Positions 10,148-22,822 of a DNA stretch of 38,487 bases are shown in pieces. Origin of the DNA: Oscillospiraceae bacterium. Lineage in GTDB: Bacteria > Bacillota > Clostridia > Oscillospirales > Ruminococcaceae. Under the pieces are notes generated by a model. It was not told where the DNA came from. It saw only the letters and a list, made by a program, of their open reading frames with translations, and ran no database searches. The position numbers and the translations under genes are program-made. Positions within the stretch are counted from its first letter, which is position 1; each line of letters opens with the position of its first letter. Location: NCBI GenBank assembly GCA_022508825.1, contig JAFLUI010000006.1:1-38487 (forward strand). Reading direction: 5' to 3'.

Positions 10148-10777
10148 TCATTCATCAGTATGCTGTTTATTTTTATAAGACTCTTTTTTATATGACGGTG
10201 AAACATATAAAACCTGACTTTCATGCGTAGTCAGATCCGTTTTTTCCTTGTACAGCAAAGTATATGATATATGCTGTTCTGCATAATCCTTTTGTGATCT
10301 GTCTCTCGTAAATGCAGAACGGCAGAAATATGTATCGGGACGTTTGTTGTCTTTTGAAATAAAAACATACATATTTTTTATTTCATCGCTGTTTTTAAGT
10401 ATATAATCGACTTCTATCAATGAAAATGTATTTGTTCTGTTATTAAATTTGAATACTGTTTTGTTGCTGTCTAAAAAGCTTTCCAGTAAAGATACAAAAT
10501 TTATTCTTTCTTTGATTTTTAAATAATTTCTGCTCATTAAAATGTGATCTTGAAAATCCTCGTCACACTCTATCCTGTTAAAGATTTTTTCTCTGTCATT
10601 ATTTAACTCGGGCAGATCGTCAAGATATTGCAGCCCTGATAAATGGAAAAAATTATTTTTAGTAAAATAAAGCCTGATGTCCACAGATCGGTTTTTCCTG
10701 CCAATAACAAAATGATATGACACATCAAGCAGCTTTTTATATGCTGACAGACTTTTTAACAAATCATTATTATCCAT
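10148..10777 (-). CDS. PBECR4-like domain protein (putative nuclease-fold)
   Basis: A 209-residue soluble protein. Its N-terminal half (YHFVIGRKNRSVDIRLYFTK, then NNFFHLSGLQYL) resembles, from memory, the PBECR4 family, a phage-linked group predicted to share the Barnase/EndoU/colicin E5/RelE nuclease fold. The conserved FxHLxGL element is clear. The C-terminal part is charged. The ATG at 10777 follows TTGGAGGA at good spacing; a longer frame to 10873 would read through the structured leader. The gene is AT-rich compared with ppk1 or metG, and no partner immunity gene is adjacent. Nuclease activity is not demonstrated; it could be a standalone toxin, a prophage relic or a defence effector. 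Confidence 0.55.
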   Translation of the reverse strand: MDNNDLLKSLSAYKKLLDVSYHFVIGRKNRSVDIRLYFTKNNFFHLSGLQYLDDLPELNNDREKIFNRIECDEDFQDHILMSRNYLKIKERINFVSLLESFLDSNKTVFKFNNRTNTFSLIEVDYILKNSDEIKNMYVFISKDNKRPDTYFCRSAFTRDRSQKDYAEQHISYTLLYKEKTDLTTHESQVLYVSPSYKKESYKNKQHTDE

Positions 10778-10795
10778 TTTATCCTCCAAATTAAT

Positions 10796-11006
10796 AGGGA
10801 GCCCTGCTTTTGGCAAAGCTCCCTGAACATTTTCTTTCGGCAAAAGCCTATCCAAGTTGTGGTAAATGTACAACCCTTATCAAGCTGACAGCATACTGCC
10901 CCTTGGAACAGAAATGCTGCTTCATCACTTCACAAAGCCGCTACGACTGTTAAGTTTCGTCGGCTCTGACCGAAAACTCATGTTTTCTGACAGCATCTCT
11001 GCTGCT
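10796..11006 (-). ncRNA. Putative structured leader or small RNA upstream of the PBECR4-like gene
   Basis: About 210 nt of non-coding sequence begin at a consensus promoter and end in a hairpin (AGGGAGC/GCTCCCT arms at 10796-10824) just before the next gene's ribosome site. Several stems can be drawn on the minus strand: GAAAAC/GUUUUC; AGCCGACGA with UCGU-AG-CGGCU; GUUGU/ACAAC; and GGC-UUUU-GCC. The segment AUGCUGUCAG occurs twice (10996-10987 and 10894-10885), and CAGCAU at 10919-10914 could pair with either copy, a switch-like arrangement. The U-tract after the last hairpin is weak, so this may be an attenuated leader or a discrete RNA. It matches no class I can name. Confidence 0.5.
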
Positions 11007-11059: not shown

Positions 11060-12094
11060 TCACAGCACCGCTGCCTCCATGCCTATCTGACCCGAGACCC
11101 CCGACGCCTTGTCCCAGACCACTTCATAAAGCCTGCTTCCGTAACGGACGGTCTTCATTTTATCAAGAGCCGGACACAAAGGATGGCTTTCAAACCCTCC
11201 CCATATAAGCAGGGAAAACTCCGCCTCCGCCGCCACGGAGCGCAGGAACCGGCTGCAGAGCCCCGGGTCATTGTCTTTTACATAAAGATAGGACACCGCC
11301 CCGTGCTTTATGACCTCCCCCGCCTTCGGAAAAGCAGGATACCCTGCAAGCCTTGTGGGAAGCTTTGACAGCAGCTTGTAGACCCCTCCGTAGGAGCACA
11401 TCTTATACTGCTTGTACCTGCTCTGATCTCCAACGAAGCAGCAGGCTGTTATCTCTCCGTGTTCGTCCCTGACACAGTAAAAATCCTTTTCTCCAAGGCC
11501 CGGATATTCAGTATCCGCAGGTGTAAAATTCAATTTCAAGAAATAAGTATCCAGTAAATTCTGAAAACCCTCCCGGTTATTTTTTTCGAGGGGCAGTATT
11601 TTTTTACCCCCATGGAAGCAGTAGGTGGTGTAGTGTCCGAGGTAACGGTACTCGGGCATATTGCGCCGCTTTTTCTCCAGCATTTTTATGACGGGGGTGT
11701 TGTCGTCCAGAATGGTGGTGTAGACGCATCTGCAGTCTGAGAGTATCTCCCCCATAAGCTGATATGCCCTTGTCAAAAAGTTTATCCGTCCCCGATAATC
11801 GGGATGGACTTTCAGTCCCGTCAGATAGGCGCAGTCCTCAATTTTGCCGTTCAGATATTCCTTGCGTATCACCGAGCCGCCCACTGCTGCTGTGCGGTGC
11901 TCATTGTTGTCAATGATGACCAGTACCTTTGCTTCCTCCCCGTCTGCCTGAAAGGACTCCATGGGACTTTCTCCCCGCAGATACTGGACGCTTAGCCCGC
12001 CGTCAAAGCCGCCGCTTTCAAAAATAAGACGGATACCCTCGTTGTCCCCGCTGTCAGCAAGACGGAGGGTATAACGATCATTTAGGAAGTTCAT
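11060..12094 (-). CDS. GNAT family acyltransferase, two-lobed
   Basis: A 344-residue protein. The N-terminal half (about 8-160) has a GNAT core with the acyl-CoA-binding motif A, YLTGLKVHPDYRGRINFLTRAY. The C-terminal half (about 175-335) looks like a second, degenerate GNAT lobe. I use the ATG at 12094 because GGAGAG lies 7 nt upstream; it overlaps the preceding radical SAM stop by 17 nt, so the two are translationally coupled. It is the last gene of the radical SAM/GH3 cluster, where acyl or acetyl transfer to a pathway intermediate is a reasonable but unproven role. The family is fairly clear, the substrate is not. Confidence 0.72.
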   Translation of the reverse strand: MNFLNDRYTLRLADSGDNEGIRLIFESGGFDGGLSVQYLRGESPMESFQADGEEAKVLVIIDNNEHRTAAVGGSVIRKEYLNGKIEDCAYLTGLKVHPDYRGRINFLTRAYQLMGEILSDCRCVYTTILDDNTPVIKMLEKKRRNMPEYRYLGHYTTYCFHGGKKILPLEKNNREGFQNLLDTYFLKLNFTPADTEYPGLGEKDFYCVRDEHGEITACCFVGDQSRYKQYKMCSYGGVYKLLSKLPTRLAGYPAFPKAGEVIKHGAVSYLYVKDNDPGLCSRFLRSVAAEAEFSLLIWGGFESHPLCPALDKMKTVRYGSRLYEVVWDKASGVSGQIGMEAAVL

Positions 12095-13409
12095 CAAGAT
12101 TCTCTCCGATCGGGACGTACATTTTCTGGTCGATCTCCTCTCCAAGACGGAGGTTCATTCCCCAGAACAGTCCCCACATAAGCGGACTTGTCCGTCCCAG
12201 AGAAGCAAATCCCCTGCTTAAAACGGTCTTGGGAGCGGAAAACTCTTTTCTTGCCAGACGGCATAATTCACTGAGCCTTTCCGCAGAAATTTTTTCCGGA
12301 CGGAAGGACAGCTCCCCGTAATGGTAGCCGTCCGCAAGCCACCATTTGTCGTAAATGAGACGGTCGCTCTCCTTAAGACGGTTATACAGCGCAGTGTTGG
12401 GAAACGGCAGAAGATGATTAAAAGCCGCAGTATAAAAATTGTGCTTCTTTGCAAATTCAAGAGCGTCCTGCACGGTGCTTTCATCGTCGTTGTCATAGCC
12501 GAAAACGAACGTCGCATAAATTCCGATACCCGCGTCATGGACACGCTTTACAAGCTCGTCCCTTTCCCCTAAAGCGTAGTTGAAGGACTTGTTCATCTGC
12601 TGCAGATTTTCCTTGTTCAGGCTCTCAAATCCGATGAGGATAATTTCACAGCCGCTTTTTTTCATAGCCTTTAAAAGCTCGGGATTTTTTGCCATGGACA
12701 GCGTTCCCTGTCCTGCCCATTTTATATTGAGGGGGGCGATCTTTTCAAAAAGAACCATGGCATTTTTATGGTCTGCAACAAGGTTGTCGTCCACCAAAAA
12801 GAAGTATTTGTGCGGTGAATTTTTAATGTCGTCCGCCACAAGGTCATGAGAGCGGCAGTAATATTTGCTGCAGTAAAATTTTGAGATGGAGCAGAACTCG
12901 CAGTTGTGGATACATCCCCGTCCCGTTTCAACAAGGGAAACCGGCAGATATTTTTTGCCTGTAAAAATGCTCTTGTCCGGCTGGATGTCATACTCCGCCG
13001 TACCTCCATGATATATCTTTTGCAGACGGTTATTGCGCACATCATCAAGCATGGTCTTCCAGACCGTTTCCGCATTTCCCACCATGACGCTGTCGCAGTA
13101 CTCTGCCGCTTCCTCCGGACACATAGTCACATGGTACCCGCCCATCACAACAGGGATGCCCCGGCTCCGGAATTTCTCCGCAATGCGGTAACACCTCTTT
13201 GCGGTGTAGGTCTCGGTGGTGATGCATACAAGGTCTGTTTTGGTCTCGTAGTCAATAAGCTCAATGCGGTCGTCGAAAAGCTCCGTCTCAATATCGGGAG
13301 GGGTGAGAGCTTTCAGCACGGCGATGGTCAGCGGCTCCATTTTCCATGTGCCGATGTATTTCTGCCCCGGCTTTTTCCCGATGGCAGGGAGAATAAATGT
13401 TATTTTCAT
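12078..13409 (-). CDS. B12-binding domain radical SAM protein, paralogue 1 (subtype A)
   Basis: A 443-residue protein: N-terminal cobalamin-binding Rossmann domain (about 1-130, with VMGGYHVT near 88-95) and a radical SAM domain with CxxxCxxC at C166, C170 and C173 (GRGCIHNCEFC). This arrangement is typical of class B radical SAM methylases and BchE-like enzymes, which alkylate or cyclise unactivated carbons using SAM and, usually, cobalamin. The C-terminal part carries the subtype-A signature (PFPNTALYNRL, then a WWL motif) shared with the proteins encoded at 17995-19344 and 19319-20641. It overlaps the following GNAT gene. An RBS is weak at this ATG (AGGAGCATG-like context), so the exact start is probable rather than certain. 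Confidence 0.9.
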   Translation of the reverse strand: MKITFILPAIGKKPGQKYIGTWKMEPLTIAVLKALTPPDIETELFDDRIELIDYETKTDLVCITTETYTAKRCYRIAEKFRSRGIPVVMGGYHVTMCPEEAAEYCDSVMVGNAETVWKTMLDDVRNNRLQKIYHGGTAEYDIQPDKSIFTGKKYLPVSLVETGRGCIHNCEFCSISKFYCSKYYCRSHDLVADDIKNSPHKYFFLVDDNLVADHKNAMVLFEKIAPLNIKWAGQGTLSMAKNPELLKAMKKSGCEIILIGFESLNKENLQQMNKSFNYALGERDELVKRVHDAGIGIYATFVFGYDNDDESTVQDALEFAKKHNFYTAAFNHLLPFPNTALYNRLKESDRLIYDKWWLADGYHYGELSFRPEKISAERLSELCRLARKEFSAPKTVLSRGFASLGRTSPLMWGLFWGMNLRLGEEIDQKMYVPIGENLDELPK

Positions 13410-13454
13410 AATAAGATCATGCTCCTAAGAAAAAGTTTTGTGCAGGGGGAAGAT

Positions 13455-13958
13455 TTACAAAATATATTCGTTGTTTAAGTCTGTCAGGTTGTATATATCT
13501 TTTTCAAGAAAATCATATATGTTCAGCGAAAACGGATGTAACTGTTTTCTGATAGAATTTAAAAAGTAGATAATCCCGTCACTGTCAATTAACCAATCAC
13601 CAATAATGTCATATCCAATACCTAAAAAAAGAATACTCTTCCCAATTTCAGAGCTTAGTTTTTCAAGTTCACTATTATTGGAAATATCATAATTGAAATA
13701 ATCAAATTCTATTATATGTAAATCTTCGCCTAAACCAAGTTCAGTGTGTAAATTTTTTATTGTCGTTCCCTCTAACACCTCAATTATTTCAAATGCCTTT
13801 GGAAATATTTTTTCAATTGCAACTTGCGGGAACAAATTTGAATTTATACTTCCATCATATATTTTCGCATAAATGTCGCTTATATTTATTTTGTGTTCGG
13901 GAGTCCAGCCATTTTTTATCAGCAACTCATTTTTTAATAAACGCTTTATGTCTAACAT
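13455..13958 (-). CDS. SUKH-3-like immunity protein
   Basis: A 167-residue, acidic, AT-rich gene lying between two radical SAM genes. The start (LLIKNGWTPEHKINISDI) and the end (SSEIGKSILFLG, then LIDSDGIIYFLNS) fit the SUKH-3 immunity fold, where a GW near the N-terminus and a late LIDxxGxIY strand are typical. SUKH proteins neutralise polymorphic toxins, but no toxin gene is present here. Base composition is clearly more AT-rich than its neighbours, suggesting later acquisition. The ATG is preceded by AAGGTG. The family call is from memory of the pattern and could be wrong; the ORF itself is well supported. Confidence 0.6.
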   Translation of the reverse strand: MLDIKRLLKNELLIKNGWTPEHKINISDIYAKIYDGSINSNLFPQVAIEKIFPKAFEIIEVLEGTTIKNLHTELGLGEDLHIIEFDYFNYDISNNSELEKLSSEIGKSILFLGIGYDIIGDWLIDSDGIIYFLNSIRKQLHPFSLNIYDFLEKDIYNLTDLNNEYIL

Positions 13959-13974
13959 AGCTTAACACCTTATT

Positions 13975-15309
13975 TTATAATACCGGTATATCCGAATTGT
14001 CGCACATGACTTCCTTGGTGAATTTGTGCCACTTGTCAGCGTAGCCCTTATATCCTAAATTGACGGGTATTGACAGCCACGGACTGTGCCTGAACGGCGC
14101 AAGACGCTGCATGATATTCCCCGTGGAGTAGGTGTCCCGCCATGCTCTGTCCGTGCCCTCTTCAAGCTGCTCCTTTGTCATCAGCTTGGGCTTGTACACA
14201 CAGTGCTGGACATCGTACATTGCCCAGTTCCGCTCCACGATGCGCCCCTCCTTTTCAAGCTGAGTGTAATATTCCGTCCTGGGAAACGGAGTCAGGATAG
14301 AATAACGGGGAAGGTCAATTTTTGCCTTCACCACCATTTCTACGGTGCGGTCAAAGACGCTCTCGTCCTCCTCGTCGCCGCCGAATGCAAAGCAGCCCTG
14401 TACCAAAATTCCGTTGTCGTGGAGACGCTTCATAAGCTCCACATAGCTCTCCACCTTGTTGACACCCTTGTGGATAAACTGCTGGGACTCCTGTGTAATG
14501 GACTCGAACCCGATAAGCAGACCCTTGCACCCGCTCTTACGGAAGACGGTTATCATTTCATCATCAATTCCCACAGAGGACGTCACCAGACCCAGCCATA
14601 TCACTTTTAACGGTATCATTGCTTTGAAAAGCTCCAGCGCATAGTCCCTGTCGGTAAGCAAATTCACGTCCGGGAAAAGAACGTGCTTTGTGTGGAGGGC
14701 TTCTATCTCCGCGCATACTTCATTGACGGGACGCTTGTACACCCTCTTTCCAAACGCCGCAGGATAGGCGCAGAAGCTGCAGGTATGACAGCATCCCCGG
14801 ATAGCCTCCACCGTATTTATTGTAATGTACCGCTTTTTATTAAGAAGCTCCCGCCTTGGAGTTGGTCTGCCGTCCATTGTAAAGTCGCAGTTCTGGTGAT
14901 AGAATTTTTTATGCTCTCCCTTTATGTAGTCGTGGATAAACTGGGGAAAGGTCTGCTCGGAAAATCCGGTAAAGACCACGTCTGCGTGTTCTGCCGCTTC
15001 CTCCGGCATCATGGACGGATGCACCCCTCCCATAAAGACGGTCTTGCCCTTTTTGCGGAAATAGTCCGCATAGGCATAGCATCTTGGAGCCGTTCCCGTA
15101 ATGCAGGTAATTCCGATAAGCTCCGCGTCGATGTCAAGAGGAATTTTCCCGGCGGTCTCGTCGTATATCACCACGTCTGCCTCCACGTCCTCGGGGACGA
15201 GAGCCGCAAGGGTGGTGAGGGTCAGCGGCGCATAGTGCAGTGACTTCCCGAAGCTCCCCGAATATCTGTGCATCGCTCCCGCGGGAGCAAGCAAAGCGAT
15301 TTTAAGCAT
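13975..15309 (-). CDS. B12-binding domain radical SAM protein, paralogue 2 (subtype B)
   Basis: A 444-residue protein with a cobalamin-binding domain (about 1-140; FMGGVHPSMMPEE near 92-104) and a radical SAM core with C173, C177 and C180 (RGCCHTCSFC). The C-terminal region (TPFPRTEYYTQLEKEGR, then NWAMYDVQH) differs from the WWL type and matches the paralogue encoded at 20641-21939, defining subtype B. The ATG at 15309 is preferred: AAAGGAAG precedes it and the GH3 stop is only 4 nt away, whereas the upstream ATG at 15327 lies inside the GH3 gene. The reaction is probably C-methylation or another carbon-centred radical step on an unknown substrate. Confidence 0.9.
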   Translation of the reverse strand: MLKIALLAPAGAMHRYSGSFGKSLHYAPLTLTTLAALVPEDVEADVVIYDETAGKIPLDIDAELIGITCITGTAPRCYAYADYFRKKGKTVFMGGVHPSMMPEEAAEHADVVFTGFSEQTFPQFIHDYIKGEHKKFYHQNCDFTMDGRPTPRRELLNKKRYITINTVEAIRGCCHTCSFCAYPAAFGKRVYKRPVNEVCAEIEALHTKHVLFPDVNLLTDRDYALELFKAMIPLKVIWLGLVTSSVGIDDEMITVFRKSGCKGLLIGFESITQESQQFIHKGVNKVESYVELMKRLHDNGILVQGCFAFGGDEEDESVFDRTVEMVVKAKIDLPRYSILTPFPRTEYYTQLEKEGRIVERNWAMYDVQHCVYKPKLMTKEQLEEGTDRAWRDTYSTGNIMQRLAPFRHSPWLSIPVNLGYKGYADKWHKFTKEVMCDNSDIPVL

Positions 15310-15313
15310 GGCG

Positions 15314-16825
15314 TTACTTCCTTTCAAAATATTTTCCCCAGTCTGTTTTTCTGCTGAGATAGGCAGGCTTGATATCCCCCAGTCTCATGCCCTCAGAGGT
15401 GAGCCGTTCCAGATATTTTTTAGCCGGGTCTCCTTTGACTTTGCATACCTCTGCTCGTCTTAGCTGTCCGAGCTGACGGCAGTAATTGTAGTGATAGCTT
15501 TCACGGAGGGCACCGTCAAGAATTTCATCGGTGATACCCTCTGCTGTTGTATAAAAACAGTACCCCTTCCCATCGGGAGCAAGGAGACAGAAATGATCCG
15601 TGATGCCAAGCTTTTTGCAGACATTGCGGACAAACTCCTCCGTCAGCTTTTCGCCGCACAGATCGGAGGAAATGCCGCTCCTGCGCAGGAATTTTATCCG
15701 CGGGGGACTGTCGGGATATACCTCAATTACCTCCACGATGTCCCCTATCTGATATCTGTAAAATCCTCCCCCGGTAGTGACTATTATTTCATACTCACCG
15801 GGAGTTAATTTTTCCGCCGTGATTATCTCCCCATCGGAAAGTCTCCTGAACTCAAAAAAGTGGGAATATATACTGAGCCTTGACCCGGTTTCTCCCGTCA
15901 GAGGAAAGGAGAAAAATCCCTCCGTTGCAAGCAGGCCCTTTGGCTGGATATACACTTCCGGGAAGCGCTTTTTTATCTCCCCGATGTCGTCTGCGGCGCT
16001 GCCGTCCGCCCAGCAGCTTATTATTTTCAGATCGGGAAAAATAATATCGAACCGGTTTTCTTTTGCACCGTCCATGACCTGCTCCCGCCTGTCACCCGTC
16101 AGCAGAGACACAAGCTCATTTATATTGTCTCTGATAAAGTCACAGAGTATTGTCAGAAATGTTGGATTCCACACGGATATAAGAGTGAGAGACTTGCAGG
16201 CAAGAAGCTGCGAAGCGGTCTGAAAATAAAAGTCCTCCATACTCCCGGAAAATTTGACAGAGCCGTCCACCGCAAAAAGCTTTTTCATCACCGCCTGTTC
16301 AAGCCGTCCGAAATAGGCGGTGTCCTCCTCAAAACCGATTGGGATGCCGCTCTTTGTATAGCTCTTGCCGTCGGTCACGGGAGTGATCGACCAGTAGCTC
16401 ATGCCGTCACAGACGCCCTCCACATTTTTGTAGATGTCATAAAGCCATGGACGTATCCCCCGCTGAAATTCCCTCTGCAATGCTTTTGTGTAGGGGACAA
16501 GCTTTTTCCCGCCCGATGACCCGCTGGTAGGCTCCAAAAGAGTCACATCTTCTGCGGTCAGGACATTTTTCCTGCCCTCGGAAATTTCATTTATGTAAGG
16601 CTCGTAATCCTCATAAACGGTGAGGGGGACTTTTTCCGCAAAATCCTCGTAGCTTTTTATTTCGGAGAAGCCGTATTTTTCCCCGTAGACCGTCCCTGCA
16701 TTTTTCCGGAGCAGATCAAGGAGGTATTCATTTTGCACCCACTCCACACTGCATGGCTTCATGAACCGTTTGTATTCGCCCCGGTACAAAAGACGGCATA
16801 AATAATTTAATGTCCGGACGCTCAT
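15314..16825 (-). CDS. GH3-type acyl-acid amido synthetase
   Basis: A 503-residue member of the GH3 branch of the acyl-adenylating (ANL-like) superfamily. Visible motifs are the ATP loop TSGSSGGKKLVPYT (residues 100-113), TEGFFSFPL, YRYQIGDIVEV, and GEKLTEEF near the C-terminal lobe. Plant GH3 enzymes adenylate a carboxylic acid and couple it to an amino acid; bacterial members are poorly characterised. The length is slightly shorter than plant enzymes, as usual for bacteria. It shares a 4-nt ATGA overlap with the upstream GNAT gene and is 4 nt from the next radical SAM gene, so it is firmly part of the cluster. It suggests that the pathway makes an acyl amide or an activated acyl intermediate. 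Confidence 0.88.
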   Translation of the reverse strand: MSVRTLNYLCRLLYRGEYKRFMKPCSVEWVQNEYLLDLLRKNAGTVYGEKYGFSEIKSYEDFAEKVPLTVYEDYEPYINEISEGRKNVLTAEDVTLLEPTSGSSGGKKLVPYTKALQREFQRGIRPWLYDIYKNVEGVCDGMSYWSITPVTDGKSYTKSGIPIGFEEDTAYFGRLEQAVMKKLFAVDGSVKFSGSMEDFYFQTASQLLACKSLTLISVWNPTFLTILCDFIRDNINELVSLLTGDRREQVMDGAKENRFDIIFPDLKIISCWADGSAADDIGEIKKRFPEVYIQPKGLLATEGFFSFPLTGETGSRLSIYSHFFEFRRLSDGEIITAEKLTPGEYEIIVTTGGGFYRYQIGDIVEVIEVYPDSPPRIKFLRRSGISSDLCGEKLTEEFVRNVCKKLGITDHFCLLAPDGKGYCFYTTAEGITDEILDGALRESYHYNYCRQLGQLRRAEVCKVKGDPAKKYLERLTSEGMRLGDIKPAYLSRKTDWGKYFERK

Positions 16826-17514
16826 CTGAACAACAGCTCCGGCACCCGCTTTTTCAGATACCCCTTGTCAATGCGTGCAAGACAGGCAAGGTCGTTGCCG
16901 TCAGTATGTCCCGGATTTGCATTGCAGAAAAAAGCGATGTCCTTATTTTTTATCCGGTGGGAGTCCACGTCCGCAACCCCCGAACGGAGCTTGTCCTTTA
17001 CGTGCTTGTATTCGATAACTCCCGTATCCGGATTATATTCCTCCGGATATAAAAGGCTTGCATAAGCATTGATAATTTTCTGCTCATACTCGGGAGTATC
17101 CGTCTGACGGTTAGGGTAAAACTCCTTCCAGAAAGCGGGCAGTATCCTGTAGGTTTTATATCCCTTGCAGATAAGGAACCAGTAAAATTCCCCATACTTC
17201 TCCGCGTAGTCGAACCAGAAATTCGCCCAGACCTTGAACAGCTCTATCTCACCCCAGTGGTCTTTATGTATTATGGTGTCCCCGGAAAACATACCGTGAA
17301 TTTCCCTGCCGTCCACGGTCACGGACATGACTTTCTGGGTAGTGAATCCCACTAAAGTTTCTTCATCGTAGAGGACAAGACAATAGTCCTTATCTGAAAA
17401 ATCCCGACGGAAAACGTCTTCGTCCATATTATCGTAGAACTCCGTCATAAGAGCATACATGGCGGAAATTTCTTTTTCGGTACACTTTTCTATTGGCTTT
17501 ACAAGACCTTTCAT
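16822..17514 (-). CDS. GNAT-fold acyltransferase-like protein
   Basis: A 230-residue soluble protein. The N-terminal half fits a GNAT fold: strands around YCLVLYDEETLVGFTTQK, then FSGDTIIHKDHWGEIELFKVW, which corresponds to the beta4-alpha3 acyl-CoA region. The remainder (LICKGYKTYRILPAFWKEFYPN) fits the C-terminal strands and a substrate lid. The classical RGxG loop is replaced by HWGEIE, so catalytic competence is uncertain. Its stop overlaps the GH3 start by 4 nt, the tightest link in the cluster, suggesting that the two act on the same acyl intermediate. AGGAGG precedes the ATG. Confidence 0.62.
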   Translation of the reverse strand: MKGLVKPIEKCTEKEISAMYALMTEFYDNMDEDVFRRDFSDKDYCLVLYDEETLVGFTTQKVMSVTVDGREIHGMFSGDTIIHKDHWGEIELFKVWANFWFDYAEKYGEFYWFLICKGYKTYRILPAFWKEFYPNRQTDTPEYEQKIINAYASLLYPEEYNPDTGVIEYKHVKDKLRSGVADVDSHRIKNKDIAFFCNANPGHTDGNDLACLARIDKGYLKKRVPELLFR

Positions 17515-17531
17515 AAATTCCTCCTTTTATA

Positions 17532-17804
17532 TTATCCAAACGGACGAATAGGACCGCTGCTGAGGTCTATTATCAATTTTATTATCAGTAATGTATAATA
17601 AAAGGACGGCATAATTAAAATAAGTAAAAATATTTTTATCTTTTCCAGTTTCGTCATGCTTTTTATAAAATAAACTGACGATAAAATATCTCCTGCGAGA
17701 ATAATTAAAGGTACGATTTTATCAACCGCCAGCAAAAAACAACTAAGAACAGTTGCTGCCGCAAGAATTAAAATACTGACGATATATGTTTTGAATATTT
17801 TCAT
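17532..17804 (-). CDS. Small membrane protein of unknown function
   Basis: A 90-residue hydrophobic protein with three predicted helices (about residues 5-25, 28-48 and 58-80), starting MKIFKTYIVSILILA. The ATG at 17804 has GAGG upstream, while a longer frame to 17873 would run into the hairpin repeat. It is AT-rich and not recognisable as a known family. It lies 17 nt upstream of the GNAT gene, so it is transcribed with the cluster's second half. It might be a membrane anchor or immunity factor, but nothing in the sequence proves this. Confidence 0.6.
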   Translation of the reverse strand: MKIFKTYIVSILILAAATVLSCFLLAVDKIVPLIILAGDILSSVYFIKSMTKLEKIKIFLLILIMPSFYYTLLIIKLIIDLSSGPIRPFG

Positions 17805-17827
17805 AAACAAAAACCTCTTTTTTGTAA

Positions 17828-17987
17828 GGGGAAGCCCTCTATCGCAGGGCTTCCCCTCTTGAAAACAGTCCACAGGACTGTTTTCAATTCACCCCTTGCG
17901 GAGCTCCTGACGCAATGCGGGGCTTTGCCCCACACCCCACCAGAGGCGCTGCCTCTGGACTCCGCCAAAGGAGCGCAGCCCCTTTGG
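17828..17987. repeat. Intergenic cluster of five perfect hairpins
   Basis: There are five inverted repeats in 160 bp: GGGGAAGCCCT/AGGGCTTCCCC (17828-17856), GAAAACAGTCC/GGACTGTTTTC (17861-17885), GGGGCTTTGCCCC (17919-17931), CCAGAGGC/GCCTCTGG (17940-17958) and CCAAAGG/CCTTTGG (17965-17987). The last three with their GC-rich spacers look like an intergenic repeat I recall as common in Ruminococcus-type genomes. No long T-run follows in either direction, so these are not classical terminators. It separates the first three radical SAM genes from the rest of the cluster. Confidence 0.75.
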
Positions 17988-17994
17988 AAACCCA

Positions 17995-19344
17995 TTATTC
18001 TTTATTATCAGATTCTAAACCAAATCTCAGTCCCTGCTTTTTAAAAACTTCCTTGCGGAACAGCGGATTGTAAATAAGATATGTCATAAATCTGTAGGGA
18101 GTCCTCATGTTTGTGTGAATTTCAAACGCCCTTGTAAAAATAGACCCGGGACTGTTGAACCGTCTCCGGCAGTCAAAGGATATCTCCGTCAGCTCGTCCG
18201 CAGTCATATTCTTCGGAACGATGCTTGAATAATTGAAACGGTAATCCTCATGGAGCCACCATTTCCCGTCATAGAGCAGACGTCCCTCCGCTTTCATCTT
18301 TTCATAAAGGGGAGTGTTCGGATATGGCATTAAAATATTGAACGCCGCAAAGGTGAATTTGTTCTTTATTGCGAAATCACAGGTGGCGCGTATGGACTCC
18401 ACCGTGTCGCCGTCATGACCCACGGTGAAAGCCGCCCATGTCTGCAAGCCCCACTGTCGGAGCTGCTCTATCTCGGAGGCGTACATATTTGCAGAGCCCT
18501 TACGGTTGGTACCCTTGTTCATATCGGAAATACACTCGGGAGAGATGGATTCAAACCCGATAACCAGACCCAGACACCCGCTTTTAACCATCAGCTCCAT
18601 AAGCTCCCTGTCCTGCAGCATATCCATACTGCCCTGACTTACCCAGTGAATTTTCAGAGGAATAAGAGCCCGGAAAAGCTCCTTTGCCTTCTCCCTGTTG
18701 CAGACAATATTGTCGTCAACGAAAAATAATAATTTTCTTTTCTGGGATTTTATTTCCCTGACTACCTCGTCCACAGGACGGCAGTAATGGTGGGCATCAA
18801 AATAAACAGAGGACGCACAGAAGCTGCACTTATGACTGCACCCTCTTGAAAACTGCAGCAATGTTATGGGAAGATACCCCTTGCCCTCGAAAATGTCCCG
18901 TCTTGCAATTATCCCCTGCTGGGGACACACCGGCTGAACGGCGGTATATTTTTCTTTCAGGCAGCCGTTTTTGCAGTCCTCTATCATATCCTTCCAGACA
19001 GGCTCTGCGTCCCCTATCATTACGCAGTCGCAGTGCTCCGCCACCTCGTCGGGAATGAGCATTGCGTGCATACCGCCCATGACGGTCTTTACGCCCCGCT
19101 TCCGGTACTCTGCGCTGATCTCGTATGCCCGTCTTGCAGTGAAGGTCTCCACGGTAATGGCGACAAGATCGGTGGGCTCGTCATAGGGAATTGGCTCCAT
19201 GCGGTCATCGTACATCACAACCTCCACGTCCTCCGGCGTAAGAGCTGCAAGGATGCCAAGCGGCAGAGGCTCCATACGTCCCTCGTCAACATAGAGACTA
19301 TGCTCCCGTCTGCCGATATTAGGCTTTATCAGTGTCAGCTTCAT
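17995..19344 (-). CDS. B12-binding domain radical SAM protein, paralogue 3 (subtype A)
   Basis: A 449-residue protein with a cobalamin-binding domain (VMGGMHAMLIPDE near 88-100) and radical SAM cysteines C169, C173 and C176 (SRGCSHKCSFC). It is strongly similar in plan and wording to paralogue 1, including MEPL in the first 30 residues, DDRMEPI, and a C-terminal PYPNTPLYEKM plus WWL motif, so the two arose by duplication. The ATG lies inside the 3' end of the upstream paralogue (26-nt overlap), implying coupled translation. The reaction and substrate are unknown. The stop is directly beside the hairpin-cluster repeat. Confidence 0.9.
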   Translation of the reverse strand: MKLTLIKPNIGRREHSLYVDEGRMEPLPLGILAALTPEDVEVVMYDDRMEPIPYDEPTDLVAITVETFTARRAYEISAEYRKRGVKTVMGGMHAMLIPDEVAEHCDCVMIGDAEPVWKDMIEDCKNGCLKEKYTAVQPVCPQQGIIARRDIFEGKGYLPITLLQFSRGCSHKCSFCASSVYFDAHHYCRPVDEVVREIKSQKRKLLFFVDDNIVCNREKAKELFRALIPLKIHWVSQGSMDMLQDRELMELMVKSGCLGLVIGFESISPECISDMNKGTNRKGSANMYASEIEQLRQWGLQTWAAFTVGHDGDTVESIRATCDFAIKNKFTFAAFNILMPYPNTPLYEKMKAEGRLLYDGKWWLHEDYRFNYSSIVPKNMTADELTEISFDCRRRFNSPGSIFTRAFEIHTNMRTPYRFMTYLIYNPLFRKEVFKKQGLRFGLESDNKE

Positions 19345-20641
19345 TCAGTATCCCTCCCAGCAGCTCGCCGTTTTTCTTGTGTATCTCCCGTCTGGAAATA
19401 AAATTTATCATCAGGAACACAAACAGGTTTTCAGGAGTCCAGTTGTGTCTGCTCCCGAAAAGACGTTTTATTATACACCGCAGAGAATAAAAATCCGTCC
19501 GCATTTTCATGCACCCGTCCCGCAGTTCCTCGGGAGACATATTTTTCGGCAGATAAGCGGTGTCCCCGTAACGGTATTTGTCCGACAGCCACCACTTTTT
19601 ATAAAGAAGCCTGTTTTCCTGCTCCATGCGTTTATAGACACCCGTCCCCGGCATAGGGATAAGGGCGTTGAAATTTGTCACGGCGATATTATTTTTCACC
19701 GCAAAATCATAGGTCTTTTCAAACACATCGGGCTTGTCCGCGTCAAGACCCATCACAAATGTGCCGTAAATCAGCATACCGTGCCTGTAGATGTTCTCGA
19801 TGACCTTTTCATAGTCAGACGCCGCATTTGCAGACTTTTTTATCTCCTTCAGACTTTCGGCGTTGAGGCTCTCGAAGCCCATAAGCACAAGGATGCACCC
19901 CGACCTTTTCATTTCGGAGAGCAGCTGGTCGTCCCTTGCCGCGTCCATGCTTATCTGACACGCCCACTTCTTTTTCAGGGGGGCTATCACTTTAAAAAGC
20001 TCCATAGCGGACGCCCTGTCATAAAATAAATTATCGTCCACGAAGAAAATTATTTTTTCCTTAGACCGTCTGAGTTCCTCTGCTATCATCTCCGCAGGCT
20101 TGCGGCGGACGCATTTATACATGGTCTTGATAGAGCAGAAATCACAATTGAATTTGCATCCCCGGGATATCTGATACACTCCGATGCCGTAATATTTATG
20201 ACGGTACACCTCCGGACAGTCAGGCACGGGACGCAGCGGCAGAGACTCGCTCGAACAGTACCTTTCCTTGGGACGTCCATTCTGACAGTCATTCAAAAAA
20301 TCTCCCCATGTGTCCTCGGCGTCACCTATAATGACAGTGTCCGCATAACGGAGCATTTCCTCCGGCATAACACTGGCATGGAAGCCACCCATGACAATGA
20401 TATTTTTATCGGTGCGGTATTTTTTCGCAAGGATATATGCCCGCTTCGCGGTGTAGGTCTCCACGGAAAAAGCGATGATGTCCGAGTCTATTTTCTCGGG
20501 GAGCTTTTCGACACGCTCGTCCAGAAATTCAATTTCAAAATCGGAGGGGGTAAGACTTTTTATTATCCCGAACAGGATAGGCTTCATAGCGTCCGAGCTT
20601 ACCCGCTCAAACATATTAACTCTTATAAATGTAATTTTCAT
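19319..20641 (-). CDS. B12-binding domain radical SAM protein, paralogue 4 (subtype A)
   Basis: A 440-residue protein with a cobalamin-binding domain (VMGGFHASVMPEE near 83-95) and CxxxCxxC at C162, C166 and C169 (SRGCKFNCDFC). It belongs to subtype A by PMPGTGVYKRM and KWWLSDKYRYG in the C-terminal region. Compared with paralogues 1 and 3, its N-terminus is shorter by about seven residues. The start overlaps the upstream stop as TAATG and the end overlaps the next start by 26 nt, so three radical SAM genes form a translation-coupled chain. By family, it is expected to be an oxygen-sensitive cytoplasmic enzyme with a [4Fe-4S] cluster and cobalamin. Confidence 0.9.
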   Translation of the reverse strand: MKITFIRVNMFERVSSDAMKPILFGIIKSLTPSDFEIEFLDERVEKLPEKIDSDIIAFSVETYTAKRAYILAKKYRTDKNIIVMGGFHASVMPEEMLRYADTVIIGDAEDTWGDFLNDCQNGRPKERYCSSESLPLRPVPDCPEVYRHKYYGIGVYQISRGCKFNCDFCSIKTMYKCVRRKPAEMIAEELRRSKEKIIFFVDDNLFYDRASAMELFKVIAPLKKKWACQISMDAARDDQLLSEMKRSGCILVLMGFESLNAESLKEIKKSANAASDYEKVIENIYRHGMLIYGTFVMGLDADKPDVFEKTYDFAVKNNIAVTNFNALIPMPGTGVYKRMEQENRLLYKKWWLSDKYRYGDTAYLPKNMSPEELRDGCMKMRTDFYSLRCIIKRLFGSRHNWTPENLFVFLMINFISRREIHKKNGELLGGILNEADTDKA

Positions 20642-21939
20642 TATCTGTACTTCTTATCAATTCCGAGATATTTGAATCCGATATTTGCCCCCAGCAGGAT
20701 AAAAACATAGGCGTTTTTTCTCCATGGAGAGGTAAATGTGCGGCGCAGGACTCTTTTCCAGCTGTAGGCTTCCTTCCACACCTGACGGTAAATTTCATTC
20801 AGACGCTCCGCGGTCATATTTGTGGGACGGAACACCGCATTGTGCTGATTGTAGACGCTCCAGTCCTTTGTGGTGAGCCTGCCGTCCCGTTCATATTCGG
20901 TAAAAAGACGTGTCCCCGGATAGGGTGTGAGGACTGCAAAGCGGCATATGTCCAGCCCAAGCCTGTCCACACGCTCTGGGAGGGCGAGAAGCTCCTCCTC
21001 GGTGTCGCTGTCAAAGCCCAGCACAAAGCAGCCGTTTACAGCAATGCCGTGACTATGTATGTTGTCGATGATCTCCTTGTATTTGTCCGTCTCACGGAAC
21101 CGCTTTCCCACGCTTTTTAATGAACTCTGATTAAGGGACTCCAGTCCGATAAGGACGCCTCTGCAGCCGCTTTCATAGGCTGCCTGCATAAGCTCATGGT
21201 CATAACCGAAATCAGCAGTTGCGTTGGACGCCCACAGAATTTTCAGTGGCTTCATTGCTTCCATAAGAGCCATTGCATACTCCCTGTCCGCAAAAAAATT
21301 AGGATCATAGAAAATCAGCAGCTTGGTTTTAAGACTGCGTATCTCATTTATGACATTTTCAATGGGACGGGGATCGCTTTTCCACATTGTCCGCATGGAG
21401 CAGTATTTGCAGACATTTCCGCAGCCCCGGTTTGCAGTCATTGCAGGTATTTTCAGCTTTTTTCTGTTAGTGATCTTATCTCTTGCGGGTATGGGAAATT
21501 CCGCCGCACAGACATTGAAATTACAGTATCGGGGCTTGGGCGTCCCTGCAATGAAGTCGCCTATAAATTCGGGGACGGAAATTTCCCCGGGACCCATAAT
21601 GACAGTATCGCAGTGCTCTGCCACCTCGTCGGGAAGAGCAGTTGCATGGTATCCCCCGCAGACGATATAGGAGCCCCGCTTTCTGAACTCATCACAGTGT
21701 CTGTAGGCAGAAAATGCAGAGGAGGTCTCAAAGGTTATCATAATAAGATCATAATGCTCACTGTCGTAGTCCACCCGCTGGGAGTTTTCGTCCACAACGT
21801 CTATTTTTTCAAAGGCACCCTCCGGTATCAGAGGATACAGCGCCGCCAGCGTCAGGGACGGATAGGAAAGCAGGTTCGAGAATTTTCCTCTGTAGGATGT
21901 TTCCTCCGAATTCCATGCGTGTATCATAAGCAGCTTCAA
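20641..21939 (-). CDS. B12-binding domain radical SAM protein, paralogue 5 (subtype B, first gene of cluster)
   Basis: About 432 residues, with a cobalamin-binding domain (VCGGYHATALPDE near 93-105) and C173, C177 and C180 (NRGCGNVCKYC). Subtype B is shown by TPYPGTRLFTEYERDGR and DWSVYNQHN. The start is probably a TTG at 21939: GAGGAGG lies 7-8 nt upstream and the resulting MKLLMIHAW matches the start of the other paralogues; an in-frame ATG at 21996 overlaps the promoter -35 box. It is the promoter-proximal gene of the cluster and lies just after the sigma/anti-sigma genes. Its substrate may be the same as that of paralogue 2. Confidence 0.88.
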   Translation of the reverse strand: MKLLMIHAWNSEETSYRGKFSNLLSYPSLTLAALYPLIPEGAFEKIDVVDENSQRVDYDSEHYDLIMITFETSSAFSAYRHCDEFRKRGSYIVCGGYHATALPDEVAEHCDTVIMGPGEISVPEFIGDFIAGTPKPRYCNFNVCAAEFPIPARDKITNRKKLKIPAMTANRGCGNVCKYCSMRTMWKSDPRPIENVINEIRSLKTKLLIFYDPNFFADREYAMALMEAMKPLKILWASNATADFGYDHELMQAAYESGCRGVLIGLESLNQSSLKSVGKRFRETDKYKEIIDNIHSHGIAVNGCFVLGFDSDTEEELLALPERVDRLGLDICRFAVLTPYPGTRLFTEYERDGRLTTKDWSVYNQHNAVFRPTNMTAERLNEIYRQVWKEAYSWKRVLRRTFTSPWRKNAYVFILLGANIGFKYLGIDKKYR

Positions 21940-22001: not shown

Positions 22002-22226
22002 TCAGGTCATATCAATACTGCGGAGACCGTCCTTTATGCCCGGACTGTGCGCCGCTGCCACTGCTGCCACCGATGTTGTAAGGACTACCGCCAGTGCAAT
22101 GCAGGCGGTGCCTATCTGACGGCGGCGGTCTTTTATTTTTTTTGCTCTTGCAACCACCTCAGAGATATCCTCTGACAGGTCGCTTTCACTTTCGATCTCC
22201 GACATGATCTCGTTATACTTATTCAT
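22002..22226 (-). CDS. Short anti-sigma-like single-helix membrane protein
   Basis: 74 residues: an acidic cytoplasmic segment of about 40 residues (SEIESESDLSEDISEVVARA), a basic stop-transfer KKIKDRRR, one helix (IGTACIALAVVLTTSVAAVAAA) and only about 15 residues outside. It overlaps the sigma factor gene by 8 nt with AAAGGAG 7 nt before the ATG, the usual layout of an ECF sigma with its membrane anti-sigma factor. Typical partners have a large external sensor domain, which is missing here, so it is either a minimal anti-sigma factor or a truncated one. There is no zinc-binding HxxxCxxC motif. Confidence 0.65.
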   Translation of the reverse strand: MNKYNEIMSEIESESDLSEDISEVVARAKKIKDRRRQIGTACIALAVVLTTSVAAVAAAHSPGIKDGLRSIDMT

Positions 22227-22704
22227 AAACATTCTCCTTTTCATCTGCGAGGTATTTTTTTAGTTTTTCTCTGCCCCGCTGCAGACGAGTAGTGACTGCA
22301 GTGGTGCTTATGTGCAGGATATCACCTATTTCCGCAGCGGTGTACCCCATATAATAATGGAGGTGTATCACCCCGCGGTATTCAGGCTTGAGCTGTTTCA
22401 GAGCCTCCTCAAGAGCGACCGCATCGTCCCGTTCATCGCTTATGCTGATGTTGTCGGGAAGCTCCGCCCTTTGTCTGAAATATCCTGACTTAACATGATT
22501 TTTGCTGAGATTTATTGTTATCCTTATCAGCCATGCCTTCTTCCCCTCCTGGTCGGGAAAGGGCTTGGCGCGAAGATACAGCTTTACAAATGTCTCCTGG
22601 ACGATATCGTCGCAGCAGGACAGGTCTCCCGTACAGCTGTACGCAAGCCTGAACAGCATACTGCGGTATTGTTCCATATCCGCTTTCAGCTCGTCATTGG
22701 TCAT
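22219..22704 (-). CDS. ECF-type RNA polymerase sigma factor
   Basis: A 161-residue sigma-70 family protein with the two ECF domains: sigma-2 at about residues 8-75 (LAYSCTGDLSCCDDIVQETFVKLY) and sigma-4 at about 100-155 (LKPEYRGVIHLHYYMGYTAAEIGDIL, then TAVTTRLQRGREKLKKYL). The ATG at 22704 follows AAAGGAGG; a frame extending to 22773 has no such site. It is transcribed with the short anti-sigma-like gene and lies immediately upstream of the radical SAM cluster, so it may control that cluster, although the cluster also has a housekeeping-like promoter. The inducing signal is not deducible. Confidence 0.92.
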   Translation of the reverse strand: MTNDELKADMEQYRSMLFRLAYSCTGDLSCCDDIVQETFVKLYLRAKPFPDQEGKKAWLIRITINLSKNHVKSGYFRQRAELPDNISISDERDDAVALEEALKQLKPEYRGVIHLHYYMGYTAAEIGDILHISTTAVTTRLQRGREKLKKYLADEKENVYE

Positions 22705-22822
22705 TGTGAACGACCTCCTTTCGCTTTTTCGGACGTCCTGTATATAAAACAATTCAGAAATGGATTTTGTCACAGAGTAATCGTATAATTTTATTTTGTA
22801 TCAAAAAGCAAGGCAAAAGGTA

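Follow-up and report, generated by a model that had tools for sequence, protein, structure and literature searches.

A conserved cross-phylum operon of radical SAM proteins, a GH3 ligase, and two GNAT acyltransferases that may build a lipid-like amide

What does a bacterium make with five radical S-adenosylmethionine (radical SAM) proteins, a GH3 ligase, and two GNAT acyltransferases encoded in a single run of genes? The question is raised by a contig of an Oscillospiraceae bacterium in the family Ruminococcaceae (JAFLUI010000006.1 of GCA_022508825.1, an assembly of 2.9 Mb in 212 contigs), of which positions 1 to 38,487 are called the window here. A sequence-only reading of the window had proposed that these genes form an uncharacterized biosynthetic cluster for an unusually branched or cyclized acyl amide or lipid. 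Our analysis shows a conserved operon that almost certainly represents a dedicated biosynthetic pathway, and it gives about an even chance to a more specific version of that pathway, in which a core triad of gnatF, GH3, and gnatA would make a lipid-like amide tailored by the radical SAM proteins.

The eight pathway genes in the window are five for class-B radical SAM proteins, one for the GH3 ligase, and two for GNATs. The operon runs along the minus strand from 21939 to 11060, as do all its genes, and begins with rSAM5 (R5, 20641–21939), rSAM4 (R4, 19319–20641), and rSAM3 (R3, 17995–19344). A 113-amino acid open reading frame (ORF) separates R3 from gnatF (16822–17514), which is followed by GH3 (15314–16825), rSAM2 (R2, 13975–15309), a SUKH-3-like ORF, rSAM1 (R1, 12078–13409), and finally gnatA (11060–12094). 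The start codon of R5 is not ATG, and orthologues back that start. As the sequence-only reading had described, the genes are tightly coupled: R5 and R4 overlap by 1 nucleotide (nt) and R4 and R3 by 26 nt, the stop of gnatF and the start of GH3 share an ATGA (16822–16825), and R1 overlaps gnatA by 17 nt at the conserved ATG of the latter (12094). The gap from GH3 to R2 is 4 nt when R2 begins at its conserved start, 15309. The description of the radical SAM genes as a tandem array holds insofar as five paralogues share one operon, but the array is not uninterrupted, as R5-R4-R3 and R2-R1 stand on either side of gnatF-GH3 and two ORFs intervene.

This gene set recurs outside the window. Some GH3 match was present in 27 of 397 genomes of the family, and a GH3 orthologue (60% to 66% identity) in 6, namely the window's own genome and five from other genera. 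These five relatives have the identical gene set and order, with three of them losing the R5 end at a contig edge. The GH3 orthologue was absent from all other same-genus genomes drawn, and its presence is therefore patchy. A query with R3 found an orthologue in 3 of 298 family genomes, each of which also has GH3, so the partners were not seen to occur independently of one another in relatives, an outcome that the sequence-only reading had named as damaging to its proposal.

When 84,980 species genomes were searched with a GH3 alignment, 78 loci emerged. Nine weaker GH3 matches in other Clostridia (about 210 to 244 bits) stand outside the loci examined. Across 84 GH3-bearing loci (some of them duplicates), GH3, both GNATs, R1, and R2 occur together in 65, and many of the others are interrupted by contig ends. 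The combination of GH3, both GNATs, and at least three radical SAM genes, proposed earlier as a check on the cluster, is thus found in many genomes. About 50 loci from gut and rumen Clostridia have the order R5-R4-R3-gnatF-GH3-R2-R1-gnatA, to contig limits and with few losses, and the order is mostly kept, but without R5, in more distant Clostridia and in Mucispirillum. In Bacillota the full order hardly varies. Median spacing between adjacent operon genes lies between −20 and +11 nt, and gnatF is immediately 5' of GH3 in most clusters (median 1 nt). That dozens of genomes share this order and spacing excludes chance as the cause of the arrangement. The neighbor genes of the loci include no shared flanking partner of the Bacillota operon, which stays together as a unit while its surroundings change.

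With the same partner enzymes, the system occurs in at least six bacterial phyla. Reshuffled versions were found in Chloroflexota, Planctomycetota, Deferribacterota, Leptospiraceae, and Gammaproteobacteria, and on one Citrobacter plasmid. Named or cultured carriers include Ruminococcus flavefaciens 007c, Ruminococcaceae bacterium P7, Alkaliphilus serpentinus LacT, and Citrobacter portucalensis (on the plasmid), which makes the system directly testable. Recurrence in rumen and gut Clostridia suggests that the product may be a real and so far unnoticed part of those communities.

The radical SAM proteins account for most of the operon. As noted earlier from the sequence, all five are complete and class-B-like: each matches PF04055 well over its cut-off (R5 56.4, R4 61.7, R3 62.0, R2 69.3, and R1 50.8 bits), contains CxxxCxxC and GGxH motifs, and has a B12-binding-type N-terminal domain. 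The PF02310 cut-off of 32.1 bits is passed by two of the five (R4 with 35.3 and R2 with 34.3 bits; 26.4 to 31.9 for the other three), with matches that lie chiefly in the domain's second half. R1 to R5 may bind cobalamin; many cobalamin radical SAM enzymes hold the cofactor base-off without a histidine ligand (PMC13331322). Among orthologue ORFs longer than 380 amino acids, 295 of 302 contain CxxxCxxC, and the seven exceptions comprise N-terminally cut or extended ORFs in which the searched stretch is shifted and one in which a motif residue is undetermined. R3 is among the best-conserved genes (82% to 85% identity in other genera), as is seen also for R2 (82% to 86%, with the C-terminus CDNSDIPVL kept in close relatives), while syntenic orthologues of R1 are 78% to 84% and those of R4 69% to 74% identical.

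In a maximum-likelihood tree of 71 radical SAM proteins drawn from a diverse range of loci, each of R1 to R5 has its own group, and every group spans phyla. Full support separates R2/R5 from R1/R3/R4 as two supergroups; R4 forms its own clade, as does R5, which is sister to R2, and the R1 group is weakly supported as a whole (85/56). R5 is found in Oscillospirales clusters, and the cluster on the Citrobacter plasmid has a divergent relative; this and the other R5 candidates outside Oscillospirales (in loci L096 and L094) are distant and of unsure placement. Because the groups are separate and span phyla, the five are ancient, specialized paralogues, and the tree speaks against a recent tandem duplication as the origin of the array, a reading that was therefore rejected. 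None of the five reaches the cut-off of a named radical SAM family in NCBIfam (HpnJ, BchE, PhpK, ladderane-type, AprD4, and others), the best score being 98.8 bits to HpnJ against a cut-off of 577.6, and a known housekeeping family, the other outcome that would have spoken against a dedicated cluster, was thus not found among them. The nearest solved structure by profile (for R2, R3, and R5/R2) is AprD4 (6fd2), a radical SAM diol-dehydratase. The window proteins reach at most 62.5 bits against the AprD4 cut-off of 500, and the operon has no aminoglycoside genes. HpnJ, HpnR, the ladderane-type proteins, and BchE share with R1 to R5 the class-B type and the B12-binding-type N-terminal domain; matches to these families are all far below the cut-offs, and the operon combines five paralogues with GH3 and two GNATs and lacks hopanoid, ladderane, and porphyrin genes.

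The GH3 protein is clearly a member of its family. It matches PF03321 with 136.8 bits and GH3_M with 52.5 bits, and a profile search links it to plant GH3/JAR1 structures (1e-21 to 1e-26). The motifs TSGS, ATE, YRYxxGD, and GDIK are invariant among close relatives, and core adenylation residues are kept across phyla. With its GH3 domains and adenylation motifs intact, the protein would be expected to form amides at the expense of ATP. The closest characterized bacterial GH3, OlsH, couples a fatty acid and ornithine with ATP to yield N-acyl-ornithine, and the OlsH/OlsI ornithine-lipid pathway of Singulisphaera resembles the present system in its operon of a GH3 and an acyltransferase, which makes an amide lipid from an acid and an amine (PMC12493201). 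The present operon differs in that its partner acyltransferases are GNATs and radical SAM proteins are central to it, and the window GH3 scores 34.9 bits against the cut-off of 620 for the OlsH equivalog NF052613 (distant relatives at most 75.5). Other genomes of the family, one of them from the same genus, have a second GH3 type (25% to 44% identity, often over partial length; L036 5673–7349 and L037–L046). This type often adjoins ORFs of about 540 to 585 amino acids and constitutes a separate, uncharacterized GH3 context.

For both GNATs, Pfam matches fall below threshold, and the assignments rest on predicted structures. The gnatF model (m896ad7a26349; predicted local distance difference test, pLDDT, 95.9) is a confident single-domain GNAT with a degenerate acyl-CoA loop. 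Foldseek relates it to AAC(2')/Eis, VIA gives Z scores to GNATs of at most 12.4, and neither fold (Foldseek, VIA) nor sequence profile singled out a specific relative. The acyl-homoserine lactone synthase LasI was dropped as a lead, being only one of many GNATs at similar Z.

The gnatA model (m66d01fd92560; pLDDT 93.9) is confidently predicted to be a tandem GNAT, and its relatives by fold are more specific. N-myristoyltransferases (NMTs) dominate the Foldseek matches with TM scores of about 0.6, compared to about 0.5 for other double GNATs, and the best 50 rows for the model in VIA are all NMTs (Z 19.7 to 21.5). Model residues 1 to 344 superpose on NMTs over 284 to 294 residues (root-mean-square deviation 3.5 to 4.1, about 11% identity), giving the predicted structure the two-GNAT arrangement of NMT, and residue 344 aligns with the ends of the NMT chains (e.g., human 496, yeast 455). 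A C-terminal Leu, in the pattern acid-x-x-x-Leu-COOH, is present in 68 of 70 gnatA relatives. In NMT the catalytic base is the C-terminal carboxylate (PMC7048800), a mode of catalysis stated to be confined to NMT among GNATs (PMC4964394), and in the double GNAT NAT16, an acetylhistidine synthase that works on free histidine, the C-terminus stops short of the active site (PMC12219266). Together, the NMT-like predicted fold and the conserved C-terminal Leu support an NMT-like acyl transfer onto an amine by gnatA, for which the C-terminal carboxylate would serve as base. The likeness to the eukaryotic enzyme thus extends over the full length of the predicted tandem fold and to an aligned C-terminal residue, conserved in gnatA, while gnatA itself is bacterial, is encoded in a biosynthetic operon, and has no match to the NMT Pfam families.

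The triad gnatF-GH3-gnatA is the part retained almost everywhere, and it was present in every phylum examined. Chloroflexota clusters contain an extra FA_desaturase-type gene, a SPASM-type radical SAM gene, and a Rieske protein gene. In Planctomycetes and Leptospiraceae the clusters include genes for a Rieske protein, a SnoaL-like protein, FA_desaturase, PAP2, and an uncharacterized protein that resembles alpha/beta-hydrolases by eye and has no Pfam match. One Planctomycetes locus (L146 8060–8479, minus strand) has a 140-amino acid ORF directly before R2 that looks by eye like a KAS III N-terminus, again without a Pfam match. The cluster on the IncF plasmid of Citrobacter portucalensis (L147, NZ_CP134684.1 51417–63512) reads gnatF-GH3-R2-R1-gnatA-R4-R3-PAP2-SnoaL and also contains a fifth radical SAM gene and a desaturase gene. 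The plasmid is mobilizable and comes from a gull isolate; Megablast of the cluster for near-identical copies matched no Escherichia coli genome and no plasmid other than itself. In Chromatiales, one cluster lies beside an MMPL-family gene.

In other Gammaproteobacteria, either R1 and R2 are the only radical SAM genes of the set or none of R1 to R5 is present. Locus L174 has the triad, only R1 and R2 among the radical SAM genes, and some accessory genes; L177 likewise has only R1 and R2 and some accessory genes, and gnatF was not detected there. L173, and similarly L172 and L176, have the triad without R1 to R5, together with a Rieske protein, two desaturases, and an NQR2/RnfD-FG-GAP-UnbV membrane protein. 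This last protein, of about 910 amino acids, follows directly after gnatA in the triads free of radical SAM genes (L172 7017–9728, L173 5315–8074, L176 11767–14502); Pfam matches in L172 and L173 show an NQR2/RnfD-like membrane part, FG-GAP repeats, and an UnbV/ASPIC domain, and it is perhaps an electron supplier for oxygenases. In Burkholderia arboris the triad is accompanied by Rieske and desaturase matches and by no radical SAM gene. Rieske, desaturase, and the other listed accessory genes were found in none of 64 loci of the Bacillota/Deferribacterota type, and across 15 other loci the number of radical SAM genes is inversely related to the number of Rieske and desaturase genes (rho −0.70, uncorrected for relatedness). 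Seen across the loci, the O2-dependent enzymes indicate oxidation no less strongly than methylation.

In the pathway we favor, GH3 would activate a carboxylic acid with ATP and couple it to an amine, gnatA would acylate an amine, probably with a long-chain group, and would use its own C-terminal carboxylate as base, and gnatF may add a second acyl group or load a substrate. Working without oxygen, R1 to R5 would oxidize, cyclize, or otherwise functionalize unactivated carbons of the product. Rieske and desaturase-type oxygenases in other phyla may do part of this tailoring, partly replacing or supplementing the radical SAM proteins, much as BchE is the anaerobic radical SAM counterpart of an O2-dependent cyclase. 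An amide product is likely. That it is lipid-like is slightly favored, because gnatA has an NMT-like predicted fold and because PAP2, membrane desaturases, and MMPL are among the neighbors in other phyla. We regard it as evenly balanced whether the radical SAM proteins are chiefly oxidative or cyclizing rather than methylating, and methylation by them is possible. More tentatively, the system may define a new class of amide lipids, made by GH3 and an NMT-like acyltransferase with C-terminal carboxylate catalysis, in which anaerobic editions with several radical SAM proteins and aerobic editions with Rieske and desaturase enzymes intergrade across phyla.

Several observations weigh against this reading. 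The inverse relation rests on a small number of loci, some of them related to one another, has exceptions (L139, L144, L145, L177, and L178), and weakens to rho −0.51 to −0.46 (permutation p 0.02 to 0.03) when one to six borderline loci are added. Sequence profiles of gnatA against the PDB returned no NMT and only weak single-GNAT matches. FA_desaturase-type proteins include GntB, an arginine hydroxylase, and double GNATs include the acetylhistidine synthase NAT16 (PMC12219266), and because of these two precedents a lipid product is not required.

The same precedents speak for a soluble, non-lipid amide or alkaloid, in which GH3 would link an amino acid with a small acid, the GNATs would acetylate or acylate the conjugate, and radical SAM proteins or oxygenases would modify the small scaffold. 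The FA_desaturase members of the clusters resemble GntB, NAT16 acts on a free amino acid, and the radical SAM proteins have their best solved relative in AprD4, an aminoglycoside enzyme. However, PAP2 and membrane-bound partners recur, an MMPL exporter stands beside one cluster, and the fold of gnatA is nearer to NMT than to other double GNATs. We consider a soluble product unlikely.

The chemistry suggested by the sequence-only reading, with cobalamin-dependent C-methylases or C-C bond formers making a branched or cyclized acyl chain to which GH3 adds the amine, is improbable on present evidence. It draws on the B12-binding-type N-terminal domain and GGxH of R1 to R5, on a cobalamin riboswitch (one in the window's genome), and on weak similarity to HpnJ, HpnR, and ladderane-type radical SAM proteins, all of which act on lipids. 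Against it, R1 to R5 reach the cut-off of no named methylase family, AprD4 is not known to be cobalamin-dependent, and oxidation fits better with the Rieske and desaturase enzymes that accompany or replace the radical SAM proteins elsewhere.

Modification of a short precursor by radical SAM proteins and an NMT-like enzyme, as in a ribosomally synthesized and post-translationally modified peptide (RiPP) system, is very improbable: NMT works on peptides and class-B radical SAM proteins are known in RiPP pathways (from NCBIfam family names), but no small ORF recurs within the clusters or up to 450 nt away, where all that recurred was pieces of core genes, of accessory genes, or of one flanking gene, and Bacillota loci have no conserved neighbor. 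In agreement with the earlier account, family searches of the window and the precursor search revealed no carrier protein, ketosynthase, or precursor peptide.

What stands firmly is a dedicated biosynthetic system, conserved across phyla and lying outside every named family in the libraries searched. Searches on a GH3-radical SAM system, B12-radical SAM clusters in Ruminococcus, and NMT-like bacterial enzymes found no description of it in the literature covered, which excluded subscription journals; nor was the combination of four or five dedicated radical SAM proteins with a GH3 ligase and an NMT-like acyltransferase found there. The novelty is in the system, as the single enzymes come from known superfamilies. 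It is a compact, widespread biosynthetic system without a named product, and it allows oxygen-free and oxygen-dependent chemistry to be compared around one triad.

The two remaining ORFs of the operon are found in none of the five syntenic relatives. The 113-amino acid ORF (17532–17873, minus strand), apparently hydrophobic and without a Pfam match, is a window-specific insertion, and the SUKH-3-like ORF between R2 and R1 (13455–13958, minus strand; weak match, E 0.0035) is a lineage-specific one; both are probably outside the pathway. One relative has another insert of 341 amino acids at this same R2/R1 junction (L035 8080–9105), and extra ORFs occur at operon junctions in some lineages (the window, L035, L090, and L124), mostly near R2; the junctions tolerate insertion. 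Just downstream of the operon lies a drum RNA (RF02958, 79.7 bits; 10822–10930, minus strand) that overlaps the start of a PBECR4-type nuclease ORF (10148–10873; PF18813, 2e-32). The 5' end of the operon adjoins an extracytoplasmic function (ECF) sigma factor gene and a short anti-sigma-like gene (22002–22773, minus strand), a pair that has no counterpart beside the operon in relatives and is possibly a local regulator.

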